A DNA stretch of 64,000 nucleotides, taken from NCBI GenBank assembly GCA_027619415.1, contig JAQCFO010000004.1, positions 1 to 64,000 on the forward strand. The letters run 5' to 3'. How positions within the stretch are numbered: position 1 is the first letter of the stretch; each line of letters starts with the position of its first letter. A program made the position numbers and the translations under genes. The notes under the pieces were generated by a model, which was given only the letters and a program-made list of their open reading frames with translations, was not told the origin of the DNA and searched no databases. Below, piece after piece: positions 5,829 through 14,119 of the stretch. The DNA comes from Bacteroidota bacterium. GTDB lineage: Bacteria > Bacteroidota > Bacteroidia > Flavobacteriales > Flavobacteriaceae.

Positions 5829-6875
5829 CTATTTATAATTTTTTATCGCTAAAGCTATTTTTTCTGGACCAAAACGAATAACATCAGTAACAGGAAGATT
5901 GGTTTCTGCTTCCCAAAAATCAATTGCTTTTTGAGCAGCATCTGAGTCTAAACCTACTGTATTCAATGAAATTCCAACAACTTCAACTTTAGTCTTTGAA
6001 AAAGTTCCACAAGCATTTGCCAAAGCTTCGTTTAATTCAATTACTTTATTTAGATTAGGAATTTTTATATGCTCAGCTGGAGGCCTCAGATTGGTCATGT
6101 TAGCTCGATGACATAATATCAAATGAGTAGCACAACTCCCTCTCATTAAAGGTAGGGTAGCACTACTTCCAGGGTGTAATAATGAACCTTGACCTTCAAT
6201 AAAAACCCAATCACTTTTAGACTCTTCTAAAACCATTTGTTCTACTGCTCCACAAGCATGATCTACTTTATAGGCATCCAGAGGAATTCCTTTTCCTGTC
6301 ACGGTAATTCCTATTTGTCCAGTTGCTATAAAACTACTTTTAATTTTATTTTCTTTAGCCCATTTATATAATTCAAGACTTGTAGTCATTTTTCCGCATG
6401 CCATATCTGTTCCGACACACAAAATTCTTTTATTATTTGTTTTTAAAGCTCTAGCCGCTGCTATATTTGGAGTAAACTGTGGAATTCTAACATCCCATAT
6501 CCATTGATTACTGGATAATGAGTTTTTATATTTTATTGCCAATTCATCATGAAGACCGTTAATAATTGACAAGCCCTTAAGTATCGCTGTATCTATTACA
6601 GGAAGCCATGATTTAGGAATTTTTCCTCCTGAACTTGCTATCCCTAAAATAAGAACTTCTGCTCCGTTAAAAATTGCAGCATCAATATCTTTAACAACAG
6701 GCACATTGTTGTCAATCGAAAGGCAATCTTTTATATTCTTTCCAACATTTTCAGAATCAATTACTGCAACAATTGGGTTGGGCAAGTACCTAAGTACTCC
6801 ATGCCCCATCTTTCCATAATCTGTAAATAAATGACCTTCCATGTATATTGCAACTTTGGATGAACTATGTAGCAT
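5829..6875 (-). CDS. dgcN: DUF1611 P-loop protein, DgcN-like
   Basis: 348-aa DUF1611 protein: an N-terminal Rossmann-like domain, then a P-loop domain with GTDMACGKMTT at residues 155-165 and a C-terminal NLRPPAEHIKIP segment typical of the family. In marine bacteria a member of this family, DgcN, is described as acting on D-glutamate (N-acylation) in partnership with an enolase-superfamily racemase, DgcA. That partner lies directly upstream here with overlapping stop and start (TAATG), so the two are translationally coupled. Family membership is clear; the D-glutamate assignment is by analogy with the gene pair. Confidence 0.75.
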   Translation of the reverse strand: MLHSSSKVAIYMEGHLFTDYGKMGHGVLRYLPNPIVAVIDSENVGKNIKDCLSIDNNVPVVKDIDAAIFNGAEVLILGIASSGGKIPKSWLPVIDTAILKGLSIINGLHDELAIKYKNSLSSNQWIWDVRIPQFTPNIAAARALKTNNKRILCVGTDMACGKMTTSLELYKWAKENKIKSSFIATGQIGITVTGKGIPLDAYKVDHACGAVEQMVLEESKSDWVFIEGQGSLLHPGSSATLPLMRGSCATHLILCHRANMTNLRPPAEHIKIPNLNKVIELNEALANACGTFSKTKVEVVGISLNTVGLDSDAAQKAIDFWEAETNLPVTDVIRFGPEKIALAIKNYK

Positions 6876-7921
6876 TATAATGTGTTTTCATCTGTTAAAA
6901 ATGCACCATGACCTGGTGCTATTCTTGGCATTGTGACACCATTAATCATTTTTGCACCTGAAGCAGGATCAGGGTTGAGGTTATAATGAGAATCAAGATC
7001 AATGTGGTCGATGTGACCAGAAATAGATGCTGCTGCAGAAATGGAAATAGAAGATTCACTCATACATCCTATCATTGTTTCTAACCCATAAGCTTTAGCA
7101 GTGGCTAAAACCCTCAATCCTTCTGTAATTCCACCACTCTTCATTAATTTTAAATTAACTCCATCTACCCATTCAGAATACTCAATAATATCTTGGGAAA
7201 ATCGACATGATTCATCAACAAATATTGGTATTAATCTGTTTTCATACAATGTTTTAAGATCTTTTTCCTTACCCTGTGCTATAGGTTGCTCAACATAATC
7301 ACACTGTCTTTTTGACAACCATTCAATCATATGCTTTGCATTTTCAGTATTCCACCCTCCATTTGCATCTACTCGAAGACCAAGATTATATGGTTTCGAA
7401 CTTTCCAAAACTTGTTCGTACATTATTTTATCAGCATCAATTCCTTCTGGAGATCCTAATTTAATTTTAAGGTATTTTGCTGTGCTGTCATCAAATAAAA
7501 GAGGAACTCTCTCTTTAACAGATTCAGAACTCATGATTCCGATAGTTAGAGATGTTTTTGTTTTAGGAACTGGTAGCCCGAGTAGGGCATGAAGCGGCAT
7601 ATTTGCTTTTTTAGCTTTCCAGTCCCAAAGAGCTATATCTAAACCTGCATGTGAACCAGCAGAGATTTTTAATTCCCTTGATAAAGATTCTATTTCAGAA
7701 ATTGATTTATCATTAATATTAGTTTTAATAAGCATTTTAAGTTCGGATATTATCTGTTCTGCATTTTGAGCTCCCGTTTCACCAGGAACAGATTCTCCCC
7801 AACCAACAATACCATCTTTTTCAACCCTTACAAATACATTATAGCAAGATGTGGAAACAAATCTGCTTATTTTAAGAGGAAATCTTTTTTGTAATAAAAT
7901 TTTATGATAACTAACTTTCAT
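6875..7921 (-). CDS. Enolase-superfamily dipeptide epimerase / DgcA-like racemase
   Basis: 348-aa muconate-lactonizing-type enolase-superfamily enzyme. The barrel motifs are readable: KIK at 152-154 (first catalytic Lys), metal ligands in RVDANGG (D185), YVEQPI (E211) and FVDESC (D236), and NLKLMKSGG with the second catalytic Lys at 258. This is the Ala-D/L-Glu (dipeptide) epimerase subgroup, which also contains DgcA acting on N-acyl-glutamate. The operon partner is DgcN-like, and the divergent neighbour is an M19 dipeptidase, so substrates are either murein L-Ala-D-Glu or free D-Glu. It starts 45 bp from the divergent dipeptidase start, implying a shared regulatory region. Confidence 0.85.
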   Translation of the reverse strand: MKVSYHKILLQKRFPLKISRFVSTSCYNVFVRVEKDGIVGWGESVPGETGAQNAEQIISELKMLIKTNINDKSISEIESLSRELKISAGSHAGLDIALWDWKAKKANMPLHALLGLPVPKTKTSLTIGIMSSESVKERVPLLFDDSTAKYLKIKLGSPEGIDADKIMYEQVLESSKPYNLGLRVDANGGWNTENAKHMIEWLSKRQCDYVEQPIAQGKEKDLKTLYENRLIPIFVDESCRFSQDIIEYSEWVDGVNLKLMKSGGITEGLRVLATAKAYGLETMIGCMSESSISISAAASISGHIDHIDLDSHYNLNPDPASGAKMINGVTMPRIAPGHGAFLTDENTL

Positions 7922-7966
7922 TATTAATTTTTGATTTTTAAAATTATAAATTATAAATTTAATAAA

Positions 7967-9157
7967 ATGAAATATATTTTAATATTATCTATCGTTATTA
8001 TGTCCTGTAAATCTTCTTTAAAAAATGAATCTGATCACAATTTATTTAAGGAAATTCATAATGAGTCGATTTTAATTGACACCCATAATGATATTCTTAT
8101 GAAAGCTCTAGACAAAGGATTGATGTTTGATCAGGATTTAACTGGAAAAACACATAGTGATTTGGATCGTTGGAACAAAGGAGGTCTTGATGTTCAAATA
8201 TTTTCGGTGTTTAGCGATGGCGGTGTTAAAAACCCCTATTCAATAGCCAACAGGCAAATGGACATTTTAGATGCTGTAGCAGCACGGAACTCAAATAAAA
8301 TTATTAAAGTAGCCAATGTTAAAGAGATTTTAAAAGCTGTAAAAGAAAAAAAAATTGCTGCTATGTTTGGGGTTGAAGGTGGTCACATGATTGAAGATGA
8401 TCTTCTTAAATTAGAAGCTCTTTATAAGCGTGGTGCTAGATATCTATCTTTAACACACAATACAGCTCCCTCATGGGCAACAAGTGCTGAAGCTGAAACA
8501 ACAAATCCAAACTTACTACAAAAAGGTCTGACTGATTTTGGAATACAAGTGGTAAAAAAAATGAATGGATTAGGCATGATGATTGATATAAGTCACTCTG
8601 GCGATCAAACATTTTGGGATGTGATTAAGATTACTAATAAACCGATAATAGCTTCACACAGTTCGGTCTACACACTTGTGGCGAACCATCGAAATTTAAA
8701 AGATGATCAAATTAAAGCAATTGCCAAAAATGGTGGTGTAATTATGGTAAATTTTCACCCTGGTTTTATTGATGATAGTTTTGATGGGAAAGAGAGAGCT
8801 TTTCTTGAAAAGCACGCTAATGAAGGTGATTCTTTAATAAAAAGCGGAATGGATCAATGGAATACGATTGATTATTTATACAAAAAATATTCGGCTGAAT
8901 CAGAAATAATGAGACCACCATTATCTAAGTTAATCGATCATATAGAATATATTGTTAAACTGGTTGGCGTTGATTACGTTGGTATTGGATCTGACTTTGA
9001 TGGAATTAATCTTACTCCTTTGCAATTGGATGATGTAACCAATTATCCAATAATAACTAAGGTATTAGTTGAAAAGGGATACAGTAAAGAAGATCTTGTT
9101 AAAATTCTTGGAAGTAATTTTTTAAGAGTTTTAGAAGCAAATGAGTTAAAGAATTAA
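7967..9157 (+). CDS. Membrane dipeptidase (peptidase M19), lipoprotein
   Basis: Renal-dipeptidase family (M19) zinc peptidase, 396 aa from the ATG at 7967; the listed ORF start (TTG at 7931) adds 12 unlikely residues before the lipoprotein signal MKYILILSIVIMSC. Metal ligands are visible: IDTHNDIL (His-x-Asp), FGVEGGH (bridging Glu), DISHSGD and IASHSS (His), and GIGSDFDG (Asp). M19 enzymes hydrolyse dipeptides and accept D-residues at the C-terminal position, which fits the divergent DgcN/DgcA pair. It is followed 41 bp later by a class-C serine hydrolase in the same direction. It should act in the periplasm or at the outer membrane. Confidence 0.92.
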   Translation: MKYILILSIVIMSCKSSLKNESDHNLFKEIHNESILIDTHNDILMKALDKGLMFDQDLTGKTHSDLDRWNKGGLDVQIFSVFSDGGVKNPYSIANRQMDILDAVAARNSNKIIKVANVKEILKAVKEKKIAAMFGVEGGHMIEDDLLKLEALYKRGARYLSLTHNTAPSWATSAEAETTNPNLLQKGLTDFGIQVVKKMNGLGMMIDISHSGDQTFWDVIKITNKPIIASHSSVYTLVANHRNLKDDQIKAIAKNGGVIMVNFHPGFIDDSFDGKERAFLEKHANEGDSLIKSGMDQWNTIDYLYKKYSAESEIMRPPLSKLIDHIEYIVKLVGVDYVGIGSDFDGINLTPLQLDDVTNYPIITKVLVEKGYSKEDLVKILGSNFLRVLEANELKN

Positions 9158-9198
9158 CTAATTCTGATTCAAATACGTTATATAAAAAACTAAAAATT

Positions 9199-10785
9199 AT
9201 GAATAAGATATTTTTAAAGTTAATCTGTATTTCAATTTTGACATCAGGCTTGTGTGTCAATAAGTTATTCTCACAAGTTACATCCCAAGAAATAGATGAA
9301 ATCGTTCAAAATGCAATTGACAACTTTACTGTTGCCGGGGTGGCCGTTGCAGTAGTTAAGGATGGTGAAATTGTACATCAAAAAGGATATGGCATAAGAT
9401 CTATTGAGAGTAAAGCGAAGGTAAATGAACATACAAATTTCGGCATTGCATCTAACTCAAAAGCTTTCACTACAGCAGCTCTAGCAATGCTAGTAGAAGA
9501 GGGGAAACTTTCTTGGACAGATAAAGTAGTAGATCATATTCCAGAGTTTAAAATGTATAATGATTATATAACACAAAATTTCAATATTCAAGATTTATTG
9601 ACGCATAGATCTGGTTTAGGTCTAGGGATAGGCGATTTAATGTTTTTTCCTGATGGTTCAGATTTCACAATTAATGATATTATTACGAGTTTCCAACATT
9701 TTAAACCTCAATCTGCATTTCGAACAAAGTTTGATTATGATAATTTACTTTATATGGTAGCTGGAGAAGTAGTTAAAAGGGTAGGAGGTAAATCTTGGGA
9801 ACAGTTTATAAAGGAACGTATTTTTGAACCCCTAGAAATGGATAATTCATTTGCATCTATTACTTATATTGATGACCTGAGTAACGTTGCATCTCCACAT
9901 CTTAATAATGATAAAACTCTCTCAATTGTAGAGCCTGAGCAGTGGGATCCTGAAAAAATAAATGGAGCTGCCGGATCTATTTATTCTAATGTTAATGATA
10001 TTGCCAATTGGATGCTGCTACATCTAAACAAAGGGAAGTATGGTAATGATCTTGAAAAAAATCTTTTTAGTGAAACTAGTCAAAATGAGATGTGGAAAAT
10101 ACATACTACTCTAGAGCCAAACAGAAACCCTCGTTATAATTCTCATTTTAATGGCTATGGTTTGGGTTGGATGTTGAGTGATGTAAAAGGAAACATGGTA
10201 GTATCCCATACAGGAGGTTTAATTGGGATGTTGTCTAAAACTATTTTGATTCCGGATATAAATCTTGGTGTGGTAGTATTGACAAATACGTATTTAGACG
10301 GTGCAGGAGTATTTTCTGCTGTGACTCAATCTATTGTTGACCGTTATTTAGAACTCGATGATTTTGATTGGGCTTCAGCTTTTGCAAAATCTTTTCAAAA
10401 GCGTGATGGAGATGCTAAAGAAGTAGTTGAAAAAATTTGGGAAATTACAAAGGCAGCGAATACTAGTGAGCTTGAATTAAATAATTTCTTAGGAACTTTT
10501 AAAGACCCCTGGTTTGGAAAGATAGTAATCTATAAAGAAGGTAATAAACTCTGGTTTAGGTCACATCGATCTCCAAAATTAAAAGGTCAGATTTTTTATT
10601 ATAAAGCAAATACATTTGTAGCTAAATGGGACGATCCAAGTCTAGTTGATGCAGATGCATTTGTAATGTTTGGATTAGACGAAGAAGGCAAGGCGTTAAA
10701 TATTAAAATGAAAGGCATATCACCAGTTATTGATTTTAGTTATGATTTTCAAGATCTCTACTTTTCTAGAGTTAATAAAAATTAA
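9199..10785 (+). CDS. Secreted class-C beta-lactamase-fold serine hydrolase
   Basis: 528 aa with a Sec signal (MNKIFLKLICISILTSG through LFSQ, cleavage near residue 26). The penicillin-binding fold motifs are S-N-S-K at 85-88 (nucleophile Ser85, base Lys88), Y-D-N at 180-182 and HTGG near 340 in place of KTG. A C-terminal domain of about 100 residues resembles the DUF3471 module often found on these hydrolases. The family includes D-aminopeptidases, esterases and peptidases; its place after an M19 dipeptidase and opposite a D-Glu epimerase suggests a D-amino-acid peptide hydrolase, but the substrate is inferred only. Confidence 0.85.
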   Translation: MNKIFLKLICISILTSGLCVNKLFSQVTSQEIDEIVQNAIDNFTVAGVAVAVVKDGEIVHQKGYGIRSIESKAKVNEHTNFGIASNSKAFTTAALAMLVEEGKLSWTDKVVDHIPEFKMYNDYITQNFNIQDLLTHRSGLGLGIGDLMFFPDGSDFTINDIITSFQHFKPQSAFRTKFDYDNLLYMVAGEVVKRVGGKSWEQFIKERIFEPLEMDNSFASITYIDDLSNVASPHLNNDKTLSIVEPEQWDPEKINGAAGSIYSNVNDIANWMLLHLNKGKYGNDLEKNLFSETSQNEMWKIHTTLEPNRNPRYNSHFNGYGLGWMLSDVKGNMVVSHTGGLIGMLSKTILIPDINLGVVVLTNTYLDGAGVFSAVTQSIVDRYLELDDFDWASAFAKSFQKRDGDAKEVVEKIWEITKAANTSELELNNFLGTFKDPWFGKIVIYKEGNKLWFRSHRSPKLKGQIFYYKANTFVAKWDDPSLVDADAFVMFGLDEEGKALNIKMKGISPVIDFSYDFQDLYFSRVNKN

Positions 10786-10826: not shown

Positions 10827-11729
10827 TTACTTTTTAAAGAATTGTTGAATTTTGTTTTCAGCATAAATTAATATTGCTAATGCTTTATTAACATTACCTT
10901 TTTCTAATTCTTTTTTAGCAAATCTATGAATAGAGTTTAAATCTAATTTTGAAATGTTTTTTTCTTCATTTAGAATATTTTTAATTTCAGATGCATTAGG
11001 AAGTTTTTTTAAATTGGCTAAACGCCCTAAATTATTCCCTGTTAACACCGTACTTTCCTTAATGCTATTAGGCAGTTTATCTACGCCTATTCCTTTACTT
11101 TTAACAGGTTTAGCAATTTCAAATAATGACTCTTTTGTTGCTCTAATGTACCAGTTTTCACCCATTCGACCTACAAGATCTAATAGAGTAGTGTCTAAAC
11201 ATCCCTTATTGTTTAAATACTTTGTATTAACATGAATTAGTTCAACTTTTGCAAGTATAAGATTTCCAGCTCCTGGACCGTTACCTAATTCTATTATTTT
11301 TGAAACAGTACACTCAAATGAAACAGGAGTTTCCTTAACTCTTGGAGGTTTTATTTTTTTACTTGGAATTGGAGTTAACCCGGATTTTACAAACTCATTA
11401 ACACCTTTTTCATAGCTAGTACTAGTTAATGACATTTGTTCTACCATATCATAGTTGACTATATTAATAACTACTTCTGGGATTTCTTTTATGTTTTCAT
11501 GTGTATGTTTTAATGAATTATTTTTTCCACTTCTAGCTGGAGAAAAAATCATCATTGGAGGGTTTGAACTAAAAACATTAAAAAAACTAAAAGGACTTAA
11601 ATTCACATTACCTTTTTTATCTACAGTGCTAGCAAAACATATTGGTCTTGGAGCAATAGCAGAAAGCAGGTAAGTGTGTAATTCTTGTTGAGTTATATCA
11701 CTTGGATCAATTGTTTTTATATTGTTCAT
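10827..11729 (-). CDS. Flavin reductase-like protein with C-terminal extension, last gene of Tyr catabolic operon
   Basis: 300 aa. Residues about 15-200 are a flavin-reductase-like split-barrel domain (AIAPRPICFASTVD, LSPFSFFNVFSSNPP, GNGPGAGNLILAKV). The remaining 100 residues are a helical extension (GIGVDKLPNSI, LTGNNLGRLANLKKLP) absent from simple HpaC-type reductases. It sits 5 bp after fahA, so it is the distal gene of the homogentisate operon. No step of that pathway needs flavin reduction, so its role is open: reduction of flavin or pterin for the hydroxylase is one possibility. Family assignment is good, role unknown. Confidence 0.8.
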   Translation of the reverse strand: MNNIKTIDPSDITQQELHTYLLSAIAPRPICFASTVDKKGNVNLSPFSFFNVFSSNPPMMIFSPARSGKNNSLKHTHENIKEIPEVVINIVNYDMVEQMSLTSTSYEKGVNEFVKSGLTPIPSKKIKPPRVKETPVSFECTVSKIIELGNGPGAGNLILAKVELIHVNTKYLNNKGCLDTTLLDLVGRMGENWYIRATKESLFEIAKPVKSKGIGVDKLPNSIKESTVLTGNNLGRLANLKKLPNASEIKNILNEEKNISKLDLNSIHRFAKKELEKGNVNKALAILIYAENKIQQFFKK

Positions 11730-11734
11730 TCAGT

Positions 11735-12955
11735 TTATTTAGCTGGTAATATTTTTGTTTCAACCTCACCAAATCCAACACGTTGTCCCTTTTTTTGACT
11801 AAATCCACGAAAAGTGATAGTATCACCATCATTTAAAAACTTTCTTTCAGATCCATTTTCCATTTTAATAGGTTTTGTTCCCATCCAAGATAGTTCTAGC
11901 ATTGAGCCATATGAACCAGGCGTTTTCCCAGAAATAGTTCCTGAACCATAAAGATCTCCTACGTTAATATTACATCCACTTACACTTTGATGAGTTAATT
12001 GTTGTACCATATTCCAATATAAATATTTAAAATTAGATTTGGCAACAACTTGATCCTTAGAGTTTTCAGGTCTTATGGATACTTCTAATTCTATATTATA
12101 ATTCTTTTTTCCTTTGTACTTTAAGTACGGTAATACATCAGGATTTTGGTCAGGACCAGTTAACCTAAATTGGTCTAACGCTTCTAATGTTACAATCCAT
12201 GGAGATATAGAAGAAGCAAAACTTTTTGACAAAAAAGGTCCTAAAGGAACATACTCCCATTTCTGAATATCCCTAGCCGACCAATCGTTTAGAAGAACTA
12301 ACCCGAATATATGATCTTCAGCATCTTCAATTGATATAGAATCTCCAAGATTAGATTTTTTACCAGCAATAAAAGCCATCTCTAATTCAAAATCTAAACG
12401 TTCAGTAGCTTTAAATACTGGCTGAGTAGAGTTAAGGGGCAGTATTTGACCTTTTGGCCTATTAATAGACTGTTTACTGATAATAATTGAACTAGACCTT
12501 CCGTGATACCCTACAGGTATATGCTTCCAGTTTGGAAGAAGCGGATTATCTTTATCACGAAACATTGTACCTATATTAGTTGCATGTTCGATACTTGAAT
12601 AAAAATCAGTATAATCCCCAATATTTATTGGCATATGCATTTGTGATTCAGATTGAAGCACAAATAGATTGGATTTGTTTGAAATTGGAGAGCTTTCGTC
12701 TGAAATCCAATGTTGAATAGAGGTTCTTACTTTATTAGTGATTGGTTTTCCTAGAGAAATAAAATCATTTAAGGTGTTTTCATTAAATACAGATGTGTCA
12801 AAATCAAAAACTCCTAATTCGGATAAGGCAACTAAATCTAAAATATGATTACCAATAGCTACCCCAGCTCTAGGAGTTCGTTGTTTTGTTGAGAAAATTC
12901 CAAAAGGAATGTTGTAAATAGAAAAATCTGAATTTTCTGGTATATCAATTATCAT
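11735..12955 (-). CDS. fahA: Fumarylacetoacetase
   Basis: 406-aa fumarylacetoacetate hydrolase, the last step of tyrosine degradation, yielding fumarate and acetoacetate. Family signatures are present in order: DFYSSIEHATNIGTMFR, HIPVGYHGRSSS, ERLDFELEMAFI (metal-binding acidic pair), LNDWSARDIQKWEYVPLGPF, and GSGTISGKTPGSYGSM. The length is the usual 400-420. It lies 6 bp after hmgA and 5 bp before the flavin reductase gene, all in one tight leftward operon. Confidence 0.96.
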   Translation of the reverse strand: MIIDIPENSDFSIYNIPFGIFSTKQRTPRAGVAIGNHILDLVALSELGVFDFDTSVFNENTLNDFISLGKPITNKVRTSIQHWISDESSPISNKSNLFVLQSESQMHMPINIGDYTDFYSSIEHATNIGTMFRDKDNPLLPNWKHIPVGYHGRSSSIIISKQSINRPKGQILPLNSTQPVFKATERLDFELEMAFIAGKKSNLGDSISIEDAEDHIFGLVLLNDWSARDIQKWEYVPLGPFLSKSFASSISPWIVTLEALDQFRLTGPDQNPDVLPYLKYKGKKNYNIELEVSIRPENSKDQVVAKSNFKYLYWNMVQQLTHQSVSGCNINVGDLYGSGTISGKTPGSYGSMLELSWMGTKPIKMENGSERKFLNDGDTITFRGFSQKKGQRVGFGEVETKILPAK

Positions 12956-12961
12956 ATGTTA

Positions 12962-14119
12962 TTATTTTAACCAAGATTTAAAATATTTTCCGTCATCGAT
13001 TTTTAATGCATTTTCAGTCACTTGTAGTGGGCTAAATGTGTCAATCATGACTGCTAATTCATGAGTCTCTTTTTTTCCGATACTTCCTTCATATGTTCCA
13101 GGGTGCGGACCATGAGGAATTCCAGAAGGGTGTACTGAAATGTGACCCGGTTTGATATCAGTTCTACTCATAAAGTCCCCATCTACATAGTAAATGATTT
13201 CATCAGAATCTATATTGGAATGATTATATGGTGATGGAATAGCTTTAGGGTGGTAATCATATAGTCTTGGACAGAAAGAACATATCACAAACGATTTAGT
13301 TTCAAAAGTCTGATGAACTGGTGGAGGTTGGTGAATTCTTCCTGTAATAGGTTCAAAATTATGAATAGAGAAGCCGTAAGGGAAGTTGTAACCGTCCCAT
13401 CCTACAACATCAAAAGGATGAGTGCCGTAGATGATTTCATGTAACATTCCTTGTTTTTTTATTTTTACAAGAAAATCACCTTTTTCATTAAAAGAAACTA
13501 AGTTTTTGGGTAGTTTATAATCACGTTCACAAAATGGAGAATGTTCTGTCAATTGACCAAACCAGTTGCGGTATTTTTTTGGAGTGTAAATAGGATCAAA
13601 TGATTCTGCATATAAAATCCTATTATCTTCACTTTCAAATTCAATTTGATAAATCATCCCTCTAGGGATTATCAAATAATCTCCATATTCAAAAGAAATA
13701 TTTCCTAATAAAGTTTTAAGATTCCCTTTGCCTTTATGAATAAATAACATTTCATCAGCATCTGAATTTTTATAAAAATATGTTTTCATGGATTTTTTTG
13801 GAGCAGCCAGTCCAATATGCACACTTTTATTTACTAGTAAAGTTTGTCTGGAATCTAAAAAATCATTTTCAGGTAAAATGTCAAACCCAATCAATTTTAG
13901 GGATGTGATGTTTTTTTCTATTGCAACTTTTGGAGTTACATCTATACTTTTGTTAATTTTTTTTATCTGAGTAGGCGCGTGCTCATGATATAACAATGAA
14001 GACATTCCTTCAAATCCAATAGTTCCAAATAATTCTTCATGATAAAGAGTTCCGTCAGGTTTATAAAATTGAGTATGTCGTTTACTAGGGGTTTTTCCAA
14101 GAGAATGATATATAGGCAT
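12962..14119 (-). CDS. hmgA: Homogentisate 1,2-dioxygenase
   Basis: 385-aa cupin-fold iron dioxygenase that opens the homogentisate ring to maleylacetoacetate. Recognisable blocks are GTHPFDVVGWDGYNFPYGFS, ITGRIHQPPPVHQTFET, and the C-terminal metal block HPSGIPHGPHPGTYEGS ... KETHELAVMID. It is shorter than the animal enzyme (about 445 aa) but normal for the Bacteroidota version. It is separated from the upstream hydroxylase gene by 4 bp and from fahA by 6 bp. Confidence 0.95.
   Translation of the reverse strand: MPIYHSLGKTPSKRHTQFYKPDGTLYHEELFGTIGFEGMSSLLYHEHAPTQIKKINKSIDVTPKVAIEKNITSLKLIGFDILPENDFLDSRQTLLVNKSVHIGLAAPKKSMKTYFYKNSDADEMLFIHKGKGNLKTLLGNISFEYGDYLIIPRGMIYQIEFESEDNRILYAESFDPIYTPKKYRNWFGQLTEHSPFCERDYKLPKNLVSFNEKGDFLVKIKKQGMLHEIIYGTHPFDVVGWDGYNFPYGFSIHNFEPITGRIHQPPPVHQTFETKSFVICSFCPRLYDYHPKAIPSPYNHSNIDSDEIIYYVDGDFMSRTDIKPGHISVHPSGIPHGPHPGTYEGSIGKKETHELAVMIDTFSPLQVTENALKIDDGKYFKSWLK

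Follow-up and report, generated by a model that had tools for sequence, protein, structure and literature searches.

A window of 64,000 nucleotides (positions 1 to 64,000 of contig JAQCFO010000004.1, assembly GCA_027619415.1, from a member of the Flavobacteriaceae) carries at 5829-10785 four genes that meet at a short divergent start region. On one strand an enolase-superfamily epimerase, here called EPI, is followed by a DgcN-like DUF1611 protein; on the other a lipoprotein of the M19 membrane dipeptidase family is followed by a secreted PF00144 serine hydrolase. EPI and DUF1611 constitute a true conserved unit. Judged by its sequences, the pair is a parallel relative of the D-glutamate pair DgcN-DgcA, not DgcN-DgcA itself, and by analogy it probably converts the D-glutamate (D-Glu) of bacterial cell-wall debris to L-glutamate that the cell can use. 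That the four proteins work in one route, as a small locus with which a marine flavobacterium salvages D-residues, is our preferred reading, held tentatively and with slightly less than even confidence. Enzyme pairs of this kind are known; the window has a variant whose flank is specific to its lineage.

EPI and DUF1611 form a conserved unit

EPI (6875-7921, minus strand, 348 amino acids, domains MR_MLE_N and MR_MLE_C) is the first gene of the pair and the DUF1611 protein (5829-6875, minus strand, 348 amino acids, PF07755 and PF17396) the second. The stop codon of EPI overlaps the start codon of DUF1611 as TAATG (6877-6873 on the minus strand), which agrees with the coupling claimed in the original prediction. 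Conservation of the two genes was examined in an evenly drawn order-level sample of 298 genomes. Window-type EPI (threshold E ≤ 1e-60) was found in four, window-type DUF1611 in the same four, and the two were neighbours each time. A scan of named genomes returned 34 loci, nearly all from uncultured marine Flavobacteriaceae, plus two from Lentisphaerae. The order EPI to DUF1611 with near-overlap was kept in 33 of them; the remaining locus ends at a contig edge. Within the genus of the window, EPI is carried by 12 of 22 genomes, most of which are incomplete. A second copy of EPI in one congener (L096:8229-10612, genome G313) lacks a DUF1611 partner and is followed by an exported M24 peptidase.

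Relationship of the pair to DgcN-DgcA

The model of the DUF1611 protein (predicted local distance difference test, pLDDT, 92) matched PDB entry 2obn first (template modelling score, TM, 0.92), then DgcN (7xrj, TM 0.80), then TM0796 and, weakly, BioD (dethiobiotin synthetase) and other P-loop enzymes. The protein has the P-loop GTDMACGK at 155 and the motif EGQGS at 227, and it keeps all DgcN-invariant residues (G155, T156, D157, G161, K162, T185, G186, Q187, E227, G228, Q229, G230, H256 and N305). Over window-type DUF1611 proteins, DgcN and other subtypes 31 alignment columns are invariant; residues and fold are thus shared with DgcN.

EPI has the features of an enolase-superfamily dipeptide epimerase or N-acyl amino acid racemase, i.e. 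a KxK motif (K152/K154), D/E/D metal ligands (D185, E211, D236), a second-side lysine (K258/K261) and DxD (D308-L-D310). Its AlphaFold model (pLDDT 93) fitted best to 3iji/3ijq (TM 0.87-0.88), the dipeptide epimerase of B. thetaiotaomicron with L-Ala-D-Glu. Arginine 20 (in ISR) is common to DgcA of Pseudoalteromonas sp. CF6-2 and E. coli YcjG and is absent from the other Flavobacteriaceae subtype; we take it that the equivalent arginine in B. subtilis AEE touches the glutamate side chain. The DLD motif of the B. subtilis enzyme presumably binds the ammonium group of the dipeptide. DxD was considered as a discriminator between dipeptide and N-acyl substrates and rejected, since CF6-2 DgcA carries it too. 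Because DxD is present in both kinds, the sequence does not decide between an X-D-Glu dipeptide and N-acyl-D-Glu as substrate of EPI.

The original prediction had likened the pair to DgcN and DgcA. Kinship of active sites and folds stands; the strict names do not. Against the NCBIfam equivalog models DUF1611 reached 219.5 bits (DgcN, NF041892, cut-off 480) and EPI 189.3 bits (DgcA, NF042940, cut-off 400). The DgcN/DgcA reference proteins were taken from annotated plasmids of Pseudoalteromonas sp. CF6-2, Sphingobium and Pantoea, and background on the pathway and the epimerases partly from secondary papers (PMC10845958, PMC11747546, PMC13338154). Since both cut-offs were missed, EPI lies outside the DgcA clade, DUF1611 is nearer to a cyanobacterial protein (46% identity to Anabaena Ava_3511) and the gene order is reversed, the pair is better viewed as a parallel relative than as a copy.

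DUF1611 was detected in 70 of 396 Bacteroidota genomes. The enzymes coupled with it belong to three or more epimerase subfamilies, or the partner is a pyridoxal-phosphate (PLP) racemase. A PLP enzyme of the alanine/ornithine-racemase type accompanies it at L109:6537-8731, L052:6860-9174 and L054:5953-8204, in Bacteroidota as well as on Vibrio and Phaeobacter plasmids; there the fold of the partner differs and the racemase role is retained. In other Bacteroidota families (L121:6765-12657, L122:3651-8356) DUF1611 stands without an epimerase; its operon there includes genes for aspartokinase, a diaminopimelate/ornithine decarboxylase-type enzyme and semialdehyde dehydrogenase, a hint that DUF1611 may take part in the metabolism of lysine or diaminopimelate. 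A second recurring cassette (L110:5651-11313, L013, L014, L115, L120) combines a PLP (PALP) enzyme, DUF1611, a creatininase and a different epimerase; the creatininase of L110 is fused to a large unknown domain.

Two exported hydrolases adjoin the pair

The M19 lipoprotein (7967-9157, plus strand, 396 amino acids) matched PF01244 with 338 bits at a cut-off of 26, and its metal-ligand motifs DTHND, VEGGH, SHSG, SHSS and GSDFDG are kept. The nearest PDB relative, with 188 bits, is the renal-dipeptidase-family enzyme 3id7. No other M19 gene was detected in the genome, which is 86% complete. The best start is ATG 7967, where the lipoprotein signal MKYILILSIVIMSC begins, so that an in-frame TTG at 7931 is a less likely start. 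With the start set at ATG 7967, 45 bp separate the divergent starts (7922-7966), a very AT-rich stretch; an upstream alignment revealed no clear conserved box.

The serine hydrolase (9199-10785, plus strand, 528 amino acids) follows after 41 bp. It matched PF00144 with 208 bits and at its C-terminus DUF3471 with 55 bits; like all Pfam assignments of the four proteins these exceed the curated cut-offs by far. The SxxK/YxN/HxG motifs are kept (SNSK at 85, YDN at 180, HTGG at 337), and PDB relatives are 4gdn (Flp) and, as second-best match, 2qmi (Pab87). PF00144 matches number about ten in this genome, the gene itself included, and five to ten in each genome of the genus.

The open reading frame list and the sequence confirmed the four frames and the 45-bp start region, and the retained export signals and catalytic motifs bear out a lipoprotein dipeptidase and a secreted serine hydrolase on the opposite strand. 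A congener, the uncultured Flavobacteriaceae FRAM18_bin141 (L017, genome G313), has all four genes in identical order, with 89-94% protein identity. As it recurs in a separate genome, the arrangement is no assembly artefact. Next door, at 10827-14119 on the minus strand, lie flavin reductase, fumarylacetoacetase and homogentisate dioxygenase genes for tyrosine breakdown. This run is also kept in FRAM18_bin141 and is apparently unconnected with the four genes.

Peptidases beside the pair in other lineages

Other lineages place M81, S58, PF00144 and M19 genes near the pair, which lends support to the predicted link between pair and peptidases. In one clade, represented by L030, the divergent operon consists of PF00144, S9, M81, PF00144, SusC, SusD and S9-like genes. 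Such SusC/SusD loci were seen at L030:1-6877, L146, L152, L155 and L156, and the arrangement suggests a locus for the use of peptides that carry D-Glu. At L041 a PF00144 and an M81 gene lie beside the pair; the M81 gene of L041 and of the L030 clade is a distinct one. In a further genome (G109) the only S58 gene of 3.9 Mb directly follows DUF1611. A lineage represented by L024 and L039 has an alanine-type sodium symporter before the pair and in some members a class V aminotransferase. Other sister lineages are flanked by sulfatases, an AAA ATPase, a fucosidase or unrelated genes. M19 genes on the same contig in the L030 and L019/L020 clades were not counted as linked: they lie 12-18 kb away and not in the same operon, and fatty-acid, sugar-transport, SSS or other genes intervene.

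The target families M19, PF00144, M81 and S58 were then scored by gene distance from the pair. Within distance 1-4 they accounted for 26 of 238 positions; farther out, none of the 119 positions held a member. A target family within three genes was present in three of eight lineages against about 4% expected for each (P about 0.003-0.008; 0.025-0.05 when the lineage of the window, from which the idea of the test came, is excluded), figures to be read with families partly picked after viewing the loci and with loci that are not independent. The enrichment of peptidases near the pair is suggestive.

A possible salvage route and its alternatives

Going by the activities of their families, the secreted PF00144 hydrolase would trim D-residue peptides outside the cytoplasm, and the M19 lipoprotein would split L-X-D-X dipeptides and so free D-amino acids, including D-Glu. 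Some carrier would bring D-Glu into the cell. There, on the pattern of DgcN/DgcA, DUF1611 would N-acylate D-Glu as DgcN does. EPI, whose active site fits this role, would invert the alpha carbon of N-acyl-D-Glu with a metal ion bound; the two lysines between which the 1,1-proton transfer would run are, by alignment, K154 and K261. Deacylation would then yield L-Glu. We infer the substrates, the direction and the joint action of the four proteins; the coupling of outside and inside steps is suggested by their neighbourhood. The route is supported because the M19 gene is single-copy and adjacent to the pair, because Pab87, a member of the same family as the serine hydrolase, is specific for D-peptides (PMC2651629), because the DgcN-invariant residues of DUF1611 and the catalytic set and Arg20 of EPI are kept, and because the pair is strictly conserved and has other peptidases nearby elsewhere.

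Several observations weigh against such a salvage locus. The full four-gene arrangement occurred in the window and its close relative FRAM18_bin141 only; no other lineage had M19 and the serine hydrolase together beside the pair. The four-gene route is therefore not general in Bacteroidota: the count is two genomes of one genus. By the yardstick of the original prediction, under which conservation confined to this strain would speak against it, the full module is nearly refuted and the pair is not. Most pair-bearing lineages are without an M19, PF00144, M81 or S58 hydrolase within three genes. No transporter or regulator that would tie the parts together is present in the window locus, and promoter matches around the 45-bp gap were at or below the expectation from shuffled sequence. 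PF00144 is functionally diverse. The serine hydrolase belongs to the superfamily of the predicted D-aminopeptidase-like enzyme and has its motifs, yet it scored 65 bits against the D-aminopeptidase model (NF009622, cut-off 443). Distance from the DgcN-DgcA prototype counts as well. DUF1611 is 33% identical to CF6-2 DgcN and EPI 23-26% identical to DgcA proteins. In a tree with several long branches, hence of uncertain deep placement, the DgcA proteins of CF6-2, Sphingobium and Pantoea clustered with E. coli YcjG (100/100) and EPI fell outside.

A less probable but serious explanation accepts the pair as a genuine unit for D-Glu inversion and takes its two neighbours for general peptide-scavenging genes that came to lie there in one lineage by chance or with only a loose relation to it. 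The restriction to two genomes and the sulfatases, AAA ATPase, fucosidase or unrelated genes at this place in sister lineages would fit. M19 was found in five of 22 genus members: adjacent to the pair in the genome of the window and in G313, four genes off in G309 and elsewhere in G303 and G304, where it adjoins another PF00144 gene. M19 and PF00144 genes can thus associate without the pair. Against chance speak the decay of the target families with distance, the different D-, beta- or gamma-peptide hydrolases that recur in other lineages, and an M19 gene that is single-copy here and within four genes of the pair in a third member of the genus.

The remaining explanations concern the chemistry. 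It is rather unlikely that EPI serves a classical murein-peptide route, epimerising imported L-Ala-D-Glu directly to L-Ala-L-Glu while DUF1611 has a role other than N-acylation of D-Glu. The nearest structure holds exactly this dipeptide and EPI has the DLD motif with its presumed ammonium-binding role; DgcA also has DLD, so that the motif does not separate the two. This route leaves the strict coupling to DUF1611 unexplained, M19 would use up the dipeptide outside, and among the annotated neighbours there is no NlpC/P60 protein or LD-carboxypeptidase, the whole genome not having been searched for them. Still more doubtful is that the pair inverts another D-amino acid or dipeptide, e.g. D-Asp or a D-Ala dipeptide, or serves synthesis instead of breakdown. 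Dipeptide epimerases do differ in specificity (PMC13338154), and the DUF1611 substrate is evidently variable, because its partners elsewhere range from the PLP alanine/ornithine racemase and other epimerase subfamilies to the lysine-pathway operon. On the other hand, the arginine shared with glutamate-handling enzymes is conserved in EPI, and exported peptidases as neighbours fit breakdown. Finally, as BioD is among the nearest folds outside DUF1611, this subfamily could be an ATP-dependent amide ligase which joins D-Glu with an acyl group or an L-amino acid and thus makes the dipeptide or N-acyl substrate of the coupled epimerase. In marine Flavobacteriaceae the inversion core would then be combined with exported D-peptide hydrolases that can replace one another; one clade would have it attached to a SusC/SusD locus whose peptidases are of the MlrB/MlrC type. 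To this scheme we also assign little probability.

Implications and comparison with known systems

The D-Glu of peptidoglycan debris counts as part of the marine organic matter that is used slowly, and DgcN-DgcA, the known route, is based on other bacteria and on archaea. If a parallel pair from other subfamilies, in reversed order and in more than one case next to exported peptidases, does this work, uncultured marine Flavobacteriaceae would join the organisms that recycle D-residues. The EPI-DUF1611 locus is a concrete gene set for assay, and the repeated pairing of DUF1611 proteins with D-amino-acid enzymes is a lead to the general chemistry of DUF1611.

The L-Ala-D/L-Glu dipeptide epimerases of B. 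thetaiotaomicron (3ijq), E. coli (YcjG) and B. subtilis (1jpm) have the fold, KxK, metal ligands, second-side lysine and DxD in common with EPI, at 28-31% identity. They pair with an endopeptidase or LD-carboxypeptidase, whereas the partner of EPI is DUF1611. The mlr cluster for microcystin degradation, in which MlrB is a PF00144-type enzyme and the M81-type MlrC frees Adda from Adda-Glu peptides (PMC12474180), resembles the loci of relatives and not the window. The L030 clade shares PF00144 genes, two in number, and an M81 gene related to MlrC (PDB 7ylq). This M81 protein is far under the MlrC cut-off (84.7 bits vs 999), SusC/SusD and S9 genes are added, and neither MlrA nor MlrD was recognised in the L030-clade stretch. 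Pab87 (2qmi, PF00144/S12), a CubicO protease from Pyrococcus abyssi, acts specifically on peptides with D-amino acids and was proposed to process environmental D-peptides (PMC2651629). Like the serine hydrolase of the window it has the catalytic motifs, an extra C-terminal domain and a gene context of amino-acid metabolism; the window enzyme differs in being secreted and in carrying DUF3471.

The closest comparison is with DgcN-DgcA of Pseudoalteromonas sp. CF6-2, which runs an N-acetyl-D-Glu route (EC 2.3.1.312 and 5.1.1.25). In the window pair EPI comes first, no DgcR-like LysR regulator lies alongside, both proteins are under the NCBI equivalog cut-offs and EPI belongs to another epimerase clade. 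In both systems a DUF1611 protein is coupled to an enolase-fold racemase, and the two pairs have their invariant residues and folds in common.

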